A stretch of DNA of 47,432 bases from a virus, in IMG/VR virus record IMGVR_UViG_3300046680_000167, positions 1-47,432 of that record. One strand, 5' to 3'. The notes under the pieces are model-generated. The model saw nothing but the letters and a program-made list of their open reading frames with translations, searched no databases and was not told the DNA's origin. Position numbers and translations under genes: made by a program. This document shows, piece by piece, positions 9,266 to 11,220 of this stretch (its first letter is position 1; every line of letters begins with the position of its first letter).

Positions 9266-10285
9266 ATGGCATCTATTACACCTAGTTTCCTGTTTGACCT
9301 TGAGTCAAACATGCGCCTGATCACCTCGCGCGACTACGATCGATTGCTCAGCAATCTTTGGTACACGCGTATCACTAAAACCATTCCGTCGGGCGCCAAA
9401 AAAGAGCAAATCTCATGGTTGCTCGACACGGCGCAGATCCGGCCGACTGGACACGGCGGTAACGTACGCTTTGACGATATCGTCGGGCTTACTACGTCGG
9501 TCGAGAACCTCAACGCCGCGGCCGGCTTGAAGGTCAAAAAGGAACAATTCCAAGATCTCGACGGCAACGGCATTGACCTCGCGACGCATTGGTCGCGCAC
9601 GGTCGGCGCATATGCCGCGTATTGGCCGCAAAAGAGCGTCGCAAAAGCGATCCTTGCCAACCCGGTTACGTATGACGGGTTTGCATTCTTTTACAACGCG
9701 CACCCGGTCAACCCGTTTATTGTCGGCGGGCCGACGTACTCGAATATCAACACCGCGGGCTCGGGCGTGGGCGCAGTGCCTATCGACGACTCTGTGACTG
9801 TTGACGTCGCGATTAAAAACCTCGCCAAGGTTATTGCCGGCGTTGCCAATATCAAAATGCCTAACGGCGTTGACCCGCGCTTTCTACGCGTAGGTACGAT
9901 CTTGCATCCGCCCGCCATGACCGCGCGCGTGCAACAGTTGACCAACGCGAAGTTTATCGCCCAAGCGGCGGCGTCGGGCGGCGGCTCGGGCGACGTTGAG
10001 GCGACGATCCGTAACTTTGGACTCGGCCAACCCGTCGAGGTACCCGAGCTTGCGGCGGCGTTTGGCGGGTCGGACACGACTTACTACATCGCAACCGAGG
10101 ATATCTTGACCTCGGATTTGGGCGCGTTTTGCTACGTCAACCGCGAGCCGTTTACCGTGCTGTATTACGGCCCGCAAACCGACGCGCAGCTTGCGCGCAT
10201 CAAAGAGTTTCAGTGGACAAGCGAGGGTCGTAACGTCGTTATGCCCGGGCATCCATTCCTGCTCTTTAAGTGCCTCGCGGCCTAA
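9266..10285 (+). CDS. Major capsid protein, Mu gpT-like
   Basis: 339 residues. It resembles the Mu gpT family: an N-terminal region with DYDRLLSNLWYTRI, a central stretch ending FAFFYNAHPVNPF (compare the FF-x-x-AHPV element of gpT), and a C-terminal domain with REPFTVLYYGPQTDA. It forms the icosahedral shell. It follows the decoration protein and is followed by a strong hairpin terminator, the usual way to keep capsid transcripts more abundant than those downstream. The start ATG at 9266 is preceded by AAGGGG about 14 bases upstream. Confidence 0.85.
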   Translation: MASITPSFLFDLESNMRLITSRDYDRLLSNLWYTRITKTIPSGAKKEQISWLLDTAQIRPTGHGGNVRFDDIVGLTTSVENLNAAAGLKVKKEQFQDLDGNGIDLATHWSRTVGAYAAYWPQKSVAKAILANPVTYDGFAFFYNAHPVNPFIVGGPTYSNINTAGSGVGAVPIDDSVTVDVAIKNLAKVIAGVANIKMPNGVDPRFLRVGTILHPPAMTARVQQLTNAKFIAQAAASGGGSGDVEATIRNFGLGQPVEVPELAAAFGGSDTTYYIATEDILTSDLGAFCYVNREPFTVLYYGPQTDAQLARIKEFQWTSEGRNVVMPGHPFLLFKCLAA

Positions 10286-10299
10286 CAGGTTTCTAACCC

Positions 10300-10329
10300 G
10301 CCCGGCCGTGTCGCCATTCACGGCCGGGC
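10300..10329 (+). terminator. Intrinsic terminator/attenuator after the capsid gene
   Basis: An 11-bp stem GCCCGGCCGTG / CACGGCCGGGC with an 8-nt loop TCGCCATT, followed by CGTTCTCTC. The tail is only moderately T-rich, so it probably attenuates rather than stops transcription. It lies 15 bases after the capsid stop codon and before the next gene. Confidence 0.8.
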
Positions 10330-10347: not shown

Positions 10348-10560
10348 ATGGAATTAGCCGATCCCATTCTACAGTATTTCAAATACGACCATTTGCCACC
10401 CGGCTTGCAGTCGGTAAGCAAACCATGGTGCGAGCTCGCATACGCAATCACGGCGACGTTGCCGCGTAACGCCGAGCGCACGGTCGCGTTGCGCAAGCTA
10501 CTTGAAGGCAAAGACGCGGCGGTACGCTGCGCCCTAACACACGACGAGGCTAGGACATGA
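10348..10560 (+). CDS. Small Acb2/Tad1-hairpin-like protein (candidate anti-CBASS/anti-Thoeris sponge)
   Basis: 70 residues, ATG at 10348. The pattern YFKYDHLPPGLQSVSKPW, then LA, then LPRNAERTVALRKLLEGKD followed by AAVR is that of a widespread short phage protein. It has the same helical-hairpin layout (F-x-Y-HLPP, V, LA, LP-x-x-x-E-x-x-AL-x-x-L-E) as proteins assigned to the Acb2/Tad1 hairpin group. Characterised members bind and sequester cyclic-nucleotide alarmones, disarming CBASS and Thoeris immunity. It sits alone between the capsid terminator and a small membrane protein, where accessory genes are often carried. Family membership is from pattern recall and the activity is inferred. 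Confidence 0.55.
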   Translation: MELADPILQYFKYDHLPPGLQSVSKPWCELAYAITATLPRNAERTVALRKLLEGKDAAVRCALTHDEART

Positions 10561-10736
10561 GTACGGCAGTCGGATCGATCCTCGGTATTATCGGCGCGGC
10601 ATTGGTTGCGGTCGGCGAGCTCGGCGTAATCCCGGGCGCGATCGGCGAGGTCGTCAAGCTGTTAGGTAGCGTCCTAACGGGCGGCGGCGCAGTGCATGCC
10701 GTGCACGCGGCACGCGCAGCCAAGGCGGCGGCGTAA
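10557..10736 (+). CDS. Small hydrophobic (membrane) protein
   Basis: 59 residues, ATG overlapping the previous stop (ATGA). Nearly the whole chain is hydrophobic: VGSILGIIGAALVAVGELGV then IGEVVKLLGSVL, ending in an Ala/Arg/Lys-rich tail. It could form one or two short transmembrane helices, as in small holins or superinfection-exclusion proteins, but it lies in the head module away from the lysis genes. Function unknown; the ATGA coupling with the Acb2-like gene suggests the two are made together. Confidence 0.65.
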   Translation: MSTAVGSILGIIGAALVAVGELGVIPGAIGEVVKLLGSVLTGGGAVHAVHAARAAKAAA

Positions 10737-10740
10737 CACC

Positions 10741-11220
10741 ATGGCGTCGGTCGCATACCTCGACGTTGCCGGCTTTACCGCCGCGACGCTAATACCCGAC
10801 GAGTTCATATTAGACCTCGACACACGGTATCCCGAGTTTTTGCCGACTCGGCTGTTGTATGCGTCGGCGCGTATCGACTCTCGATTGACCAAGCGATACG
10901 ACGCGCCCTTTAAAACACCGTACCCGGTTGCGGTGCTCGATTGGCTTACCCGTATCGTGTCGCATGAGGCGTGGCTAAAACGTGGCCGCGCGGCGTCCGA
11001 CGAGGATGCGCAAATGTACATGGCCGACCACGATCAAGCGTGGGCGGATATCAAAGAAGCGGCCGACTCTGAAATCGGACTGTTTGATTTGCCGCTCCGA
11101 TCAAACACTGATCAATCAGGCATACAGCGCGGGTTTCCTCGCGTGTACTCACAGCAATCGCCGTACGCATGGTCGGTCGCGCAAGCGCGTATCGGTCATA
11201 TGGAAGATGAAAACGCGTGA
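10741..11220 (+). CDS. Head-tail connector, Mu gp36 / DUF1320-like
   Basis: 159 residues, beginning MASVAYLDVAGF at 10741; an upstream in-frame start at 10696 would overlap the small membrane protein and is rejected. The sequence has the DUF1320 layout: an N-terminal hydrophobic segment, ASARIDSRLTKRYDAPFKTP, WLTRIVSHEAWLKRG and DIKEAADSEIGLFDLPL. These proteins bind under the portal as adaptors in Mu-type phages. It overlaps the following morphogenesis gene by four bases. Confidence 0.82.
   Translation: MASVAYLDVAGFTAATLIPDEFILDLDTRYPEFLPTRLLYASARIDSRLTKRYDAPFKTPYPVAVLDWLTRIVSHEAWLKRGRAASDEDAQMYMADHDQAWADIKEAADSEIGLFDLPLRSNTDQSGIQRGFPRVYSQQSPYAWSVAQARIGHMEDENA

Follow-up and report, generated by a model that had tools for sequence, protein, structure and literature searches.

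The closest described systems to the gene analyzed here are Acb2 and Tad1, two proteins of the sponge type that have a helical hairpin in common. The Acb2 protomer comprises one short N-terminal helix and two long antiparallel helices, and in Tad1 a beta sheet is present at the N-terminus (PMC12043709). In Pfam, the hairpin is represented by PF24729 (Acb2_Tad1_hairpin), a model of 58 positions with a curated cut-off of 27 bits, which was not mentioned in the literature that we searched. T4 Vs.4, which is Acb2 (PDB 7uq2; the counterpart from phage p26 is PDB 8h2j), exceeds this cut-off (7e-20). A third group comprises short PF24729 proteins, which are PHROG 1454-like and include 'Acb2 homolog 43' (PDB 9ptq), for which our literature search retrieved no paper. 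We compared these systems with a small gene of the IMG/VR record IMGVR_UViG_3300046680_000167, whose 47,432 nucleotides constitute the window of this analysis. The gene had been predicted from the sequence to encode an Acb2/Tad1-type anti-defence protein.

The gene at positions 10,348–10,560 (+) is an ATG open reading frame (ORF) encoding 70 residues, MELADPILQYFKYDHLPPGLQSVSKPWCELAYAITATLPRNAERTVALRKLLEGKDAAVRCALTHDEART. It carries exactly the residue pattern given in the original prediction, F11-x-Y13-x-H15-L-P-P, L30-A31, L38-P39, and E43-R44-x-x-A47-L48-x-K50-L-L-E53. The comparison with its closest relative, on the viral contig L001, resulted in a dN of 0.23 and a dS of 0.90, and 30 of the 56 nucleotide differences fall at third positions; the ORF thus represents a genuine, conserved gene under purifying selection. 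Because the relatives are numerous, the core residues are invariant, and dN is low relative to dS, the pattern is not a product of chance.

Profile searches place the 70-residue protein in PHROG 1761 (1.4e-26, residues 4–67) and PHROG 5120 (1.1e-15, residues 6–68), neither of which carries an assigned function in PHROGs. The PHROG 1761 profile is 148 positions long and the protein covers only its C-terminal half, which does not represent a difference in kind. By tblastn, relatives were found in at least 334 isolate-phage records, including Vibrio, Erwinia, Acinetobacter, Brevibacterium, Gordonia, and Mycobacterium phages, and nearly all of the listed relatives are labeled 'hypothetical protein'. 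A pattern search of viral contigs added 38 loci, and the family alignment submitted against genome_contigs retrieved a single locus (Kocuria). Across 35 diverse members, eleven residues do not vary (L16, E43, L48, R49, K50, L51, L52, E53, K55, D56, and R60), and the signature of the family is an almost invariant LRKLLExKDxxVR helix. The family is thus already catalogued, without a function and outside the Acb2/Tad1 model of Pfam, and as such it is a diverged offshoot of an already known type of protein. Some members are extended. In Ochrobactrum phage vB_OspP_OH (L055, 765–1133), the family member makes up the C-terminal half of a 122-residue protein, a domain fusion whose N-terminal part resembles a zinc-ribbon domain; this protein is annotated as anti-TRAP and has weak Pfam matches. 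Upstream of the match at L020 and L022, the reading frame of the hairpin domain includes N-terminal extensions that resemble each other (KLIHWPDTTPI-DNLLT-REHGDF), and the member at L025 has a long C-terminal extension.

For the kinship analysis, the protein was submitted against PF24729, and no match was obtained even at an E-value of 10. Among 36 relatives, however, 10 matched PF24729, all of them under the 27-bit cut-off, with a best E-value of 4.2e-4, at most 20.9 bits, and a best match spanning profile positions 2–56 of 58. Neither the whole window nor any of 30 records that carry the family contained a PF24729 match above the cut-off. We then used short PF24729 proteins as a bridge. This group was gathered with the motif 'REKSLAITKLEEAMFWANAAIAR' as a lead, and the recovered proteins were confirmed as PF24729 above the cut-off; all eight bridging proteins tested exceeded it, with E-values from 1.4e-7 to 1.9e-27. 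The Acb2-type group was assembled around T4 Vs.4. Comparison of the window family with the short group by hhalign resulted in 82% over 34 columns, whereas the best of 30 column shuffles reached 3.8% and reversed profiles remained below 0.4%; a second pair of alignments gave 89.6% over 52 columns. The short group in turn aligned with the Acb2 group at 88.6%, and its profile retrieved from the PDB both 'Acb2 homolog 43' (9ptq, 3.9e-10) and Tad1 (7uav, 4.9e-4). In reciprocal hmmsearch of the window family against the short group, the median real member outscored every one of more than 2,000 shuffled decoys, so that over half of the real members beat the best decoy. PHROG 1454 matches both sides, with 4e-6 to 9e-6 for members of the window family and 7e-4 for T4 Vs.4; across 61 genomes of one bacterial family, it gave one weak match.

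The direct comparisons gave a different result. The window family reached 0.09% against the Acb2 group in hhalign and nothing exceeding decoys against a Tad1 fragment, and PDB searches with the 70-residue protein and with family-only profiles yielded no Acb2 or Tad1 match of weight (9ptq appeared at an E-value of 1.1). A profile including T4 Vs.4 found 9ptq at 0.0086, which was not counted because that member biases it. The kinship is therefore transitive: the window family links to the short PF24729 proteins, these link to Acb2 and Tad1, and the direct link is undetectable. On this chain, we consider it highly probable that the PHROG 1761/5120 family belongs to the Acb2/Tad1 hairpin superfamily, as a remote member. 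The Acb2/Tad1-type assignment of the original prediction thus holds as a remote relationship, borne by the profile–profile comparisons (82–90%) and the predicted fold, and does not hold as a direct similarity to either protein; likewise, the profile search against the hairpin family succeeded below the cut-off with relatives and failed with the protein itself.

The predicted fold is in line with this placement. AlphaFold2 on the family alignment gave a model with a pLDDT of 92 and three helices at residues 6–11, 18–37, and 42–69. In the model and the alignment, the predicted short N-terminal helix (10,363–10,380, +) precedes a conserved F-x-[YF]-x-HLP loop; predicted long helix 1 (10,399–10,458, +) contains the nearly invariant L20, S24, and A31; and predicted long helix 2 (10,471–10,554, +) carries the invariant E43, LRKLLE, K55-D56, and R60. 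A model of a short PF24729 protein shows the same elements. The modeled fold is a short helix followed by a two-helix hairpin, as in the Acb2 protomer, which agrees with the hairpin that had been expected for this gene. Given the sub-cut-off matches of relatives and this hairpin, the outcome named beforehand as refuting the prediction, in which both a profile match and a two-helix hairpin would be lacking, was not observed. When the model was submitted to Foldseek against predicted viral structures, its own family came first, followed by hits named 'Acb2/Tad1 hairpin domain-containing protein', which accounted for 16 of the 50 listed viral hits with a best probability of 1.00 and were the main named hits outside the family. 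Against the PDB, the same model returned only noise, with neither Acb2 nor Tad1; as a bona fide short PF24729 control model likewise returned noise, this result is uninformative and weighs little against kinship.

The resemblance could also be convergent, given that two-helix hairpins are simple and that any short hairpin with an LA...LP...E...AL.KL spacing would score. The undetectable direct similarity to Acb2 and the noise of the PDB fold search would fit such an origin, which is nevertheless already disfavored, and we regard it as quite improbable. Out of 24,736 Pfam models submitted against the 36 relatives, PF24729 alone recurs widely and no other family matches more than two; shuffled and reversed profiles score far lower than the real ones; PHROG 1454 recognizes both the window family and T4 Vs.4; and the viral-structure search picks Acb2/Tad1 hairpin proteins by name. 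Together, the sub-cut-off matches of relatives, the profile–profile links, and the predicted hairpin leave common descent with the Acb2/Tad1 hairpin as the preferred reading.

With respect to the individual systems, the 70-residue protein is most like the short PF24729 proteins, with which it shares the length, the arrangement of one short and two long helices, an aromatic N-terminal loop, and an LA...LPxxxE...A..KLxE core in register. Reading of the alignment pairs the core residues, in family and short-protein numbering, as E43/E53, A47/A57, K50/K60, L51/L61, and E53/E63, and F11 and Y13 pair with the F-x-F of the short proteins. In contrast, several features of the short group are missing from the window family, namely its invariant histidines, R34, the arginine of GREK, and the FWANAAIAR end, and the window family has LRKLLExKDxxVR instead. 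With the short proteins numbered by the first row of their alignment, invariant R34 aligns with S24, although in helix 1 the alignment is uncertain by one or more residues, and invariant R52 (of GREK) aligns with A42; where the short group has its invariant M65, W67, and N69, the window family has K55, A57, and V59. The invariant charges of the family itself (R49, K55, D56, and R60) stand instead of the short-group arginines, and in the chained alignment the conserved arginine of WACRAV in T4 Vs.4 falls on invariant R60. Acb2 resembles the 70-residue protein in its helical hairpin and short N-terminal helix, whereas the latter has no long insert between the helices. Tad1 is connected through the same chain, since part of it matches the short PF24729 profile; the modeled protein is all-helical, without the N-terminal beta sheet of Tad1, and has no direct similarity to it.

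The ligand contacts of Acb2 include Y11, K26, and R67. Along the chained alignment, the 70-residue protein seems to have no basic residue of the K26 or R67 type: aromatic Y13 of the N-terminal loop is kept, the helix-1 basic position is S24 (subject to the uncertain register in that helix), and the position of the arginine at the start of helix 2 is taken by A42. Of the Acb2 ligand-contact types, only the aromatic residue seems to be retained in the aligned sequences. Thus, the fold is common to the Acb2 superfamily, and the pocket, if any, probably differs. The changed residues of the pocket region suggest that the ligand or the binding mode is not simply that of Acb2. The sequestration of cyclic nucleotides or gcADPR, as proposed earlier, is a putative function; the basic positions of that region are not conserved in the family.

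The loss of these basic positions bears on a second reading, in which the protein has the superfamily fold and no longer sequesters nucleotides, but binds a host protein as an adaptor or inhibitor, for counter-defence or take-over of another kind. The family invariants R49, K50, E53, K55, D56, and R60, which differ from the short PF24729 invariants, would suit it as well, and the nomadic position of the gene suits any accessory function. Against this, no interaction partner is known, and a small-molecule ligand that is itself conserved would account more easily for invariance across phages of hosts as different as actinomycetes, Vibrio, Acinetobacter, and rhizobia than would a rapidly evolving host protein. 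We judge host-protein binding unlikely, although of some weight, and prefer signal binding.

The gene sits among Mu-like genes. The flanks comprise Portal_Mu, Peptidase S49, and gpT capsid genes, with sub-threshold gp36 and Phage_tail_S matches. Immediately upstream is the major capsid protein of the Mu-like gpT type (9,266–10,285, +; PF10124, 2.2e-7), and downstream is a Mu gp36-like protein (10,741–11,220, +; PF07030, 9.5e-5, just below the cut-off). The spacer between the capsid stop codon and the gene contains a very stable stem-loop (10,300–10,329, +); the spacer folds with -28.5 kcal/mol, at a z-score of -4.6, and none of 200 shuffled sequences was as stable. The stem-loop lacks a T tract and does not appear in the terminator scan list. 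At the same place, L001 has an inverted repeat of different sequence followed by TTTTT, which makes the capsid terminator proposed for this position plausible, possibly as a weak one.

The capsid protein search retrieved 74 relatives in viral contigs, of which 72 were examined and 69 have a detectable gp36 gene. The 70-residue gene lies between capsid and gp36 in only one of the 69, the nearest relative (L166, on the same contig as L001). In 62, the gap between the two genes is 3–182 bp, and in six it is occupied by other material of 392–1129 bp. As the 70-residue gene is missing at this site from 68 of the 69 relatives that share both flanking genes, this gene and the 59-residue ORF that follows it constitute an optional cassette inserted between capsid and gp36 in this lineage. 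The capsid–gp36 junction looks like a variable cargo site. Unrelated ORFs occupy it at L213 (1231–1727), L231 (4024–4510), L234 (4009–4473), L235 (3422–3816), and L236 (4066–5197), and that of L234 could be a beta-rich decoration protein. A tblastn search of 50,697 isolate-phage records with the capsid protein retrieved no match, in contrast to its 74 relatives in uncultured viral contigs; the window thus seems to belong to a Mu-like head lineage without a cultured representative in that isolate-phage collection.

Second in the cassette, the 59-residue ORF (10,557–10,736, +) is hydrophobic, with a best 19-residue Kyte–Doolittle mean of 2.18, so that its description as a small membrane protein is reasonable. 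Its ATG overlaps the TGA stop of the 70-residue gene as ATGA, as had been noted from the sequence. A counterpart with 77.5% identity over 40 residues is present in L001, without the ATGA overlap. Searches for the ORF in the neighborhoods of other family members and in isolate phages retrieved no match, and a pattern search of viral contigs yielded no relative beyond L001. The proposal that the two genes form an immune-evasion pair is therefore weak, as the 59-residue ORF accompanies the gene only in one close relative and is not coupled by ATGA there. Small lipoprotein-like or membrane-helix ORFs follow or overlap the family members at L019, L023, L026, L032, and L055; none of them is homologous to the 59-residue ORF.

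The position next to the capsid gene raises a third reading, in which the protein contributes to the structure or assembly of the head, for example as a small connector or decoration helper. The family member of Gordonia phage Pimento likewise lies between the capsid and head-to-tail adaptor genes, and some other relatives of the window have unrelated, possibly structural ORFs at the same site. Set against this are the near-complete absence of the gene from that site in relatives with the same head genes and the places of other family members, which include the vicinity of lysis genes, of a topoisomerase, and of small genes at a distance from head modules. In Vibrio phage martha, the member lies just before a gene annotated as portal; in Nocardia phage NS-I, between the minor tail protein and lysin genes; in Brevibacterium phage AGM1, it adjoins the holin; in Acinetobacter phage ZZ1, it is near a topoisomerase; and in Mycobacterium phage BigNuz, it is among small genes near the right end. 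Such varied neighborhoods fit an accessory gene and do not fit a fixed part of the virion, and a head function is accordingly improbable. In Citrobacter phage phiNP (L058, 2501–2680), the member lies directly after the Rz gene and is unannotated in the GenBank record.

From the profile links, the predicted fold, and the optional and mobile placement of the gene, we propose, with about even confidence, that the 70-residue protein is a divergent sponge-type counter-defence protein, encoded by an accessory gene in a Mu-like head module. In the proposed mechanism, the protein would form a small oligomer of helical hairpins, the oligomer would bind a signaling small molecule made by the bacterial immune system, and the bound signal would be kept from its effector, as by Acb2 and Tad1. 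The signal-binding function by itself is offered tentatively, at or slightly short of an even chance. A more specific version, in which the LRKLLExKDxxVR family constitutes a new branch of sponges, with altered invariant charges that bind a signal taken by neither Acb2 nor Tad1, is a good deal more speculative; if it were true, the ligand of the family would indicate an immune messenger with which no sponge has so far been associated.

If the sponge-type reading is right, a family catalogued in two PHROGs of unassigned function and present in hundreds of isolate-phage records becomes a candidate counter-defence family, testable by a standard panel of ligand-binding and rescue assays. For Acb4, rescue was assayed with T4 lacking acb1 and acb2 (PMC11722364). 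As its conserved residues are unlike those of the known sponges, the family could extend the action of sponges to further signals or hosts.
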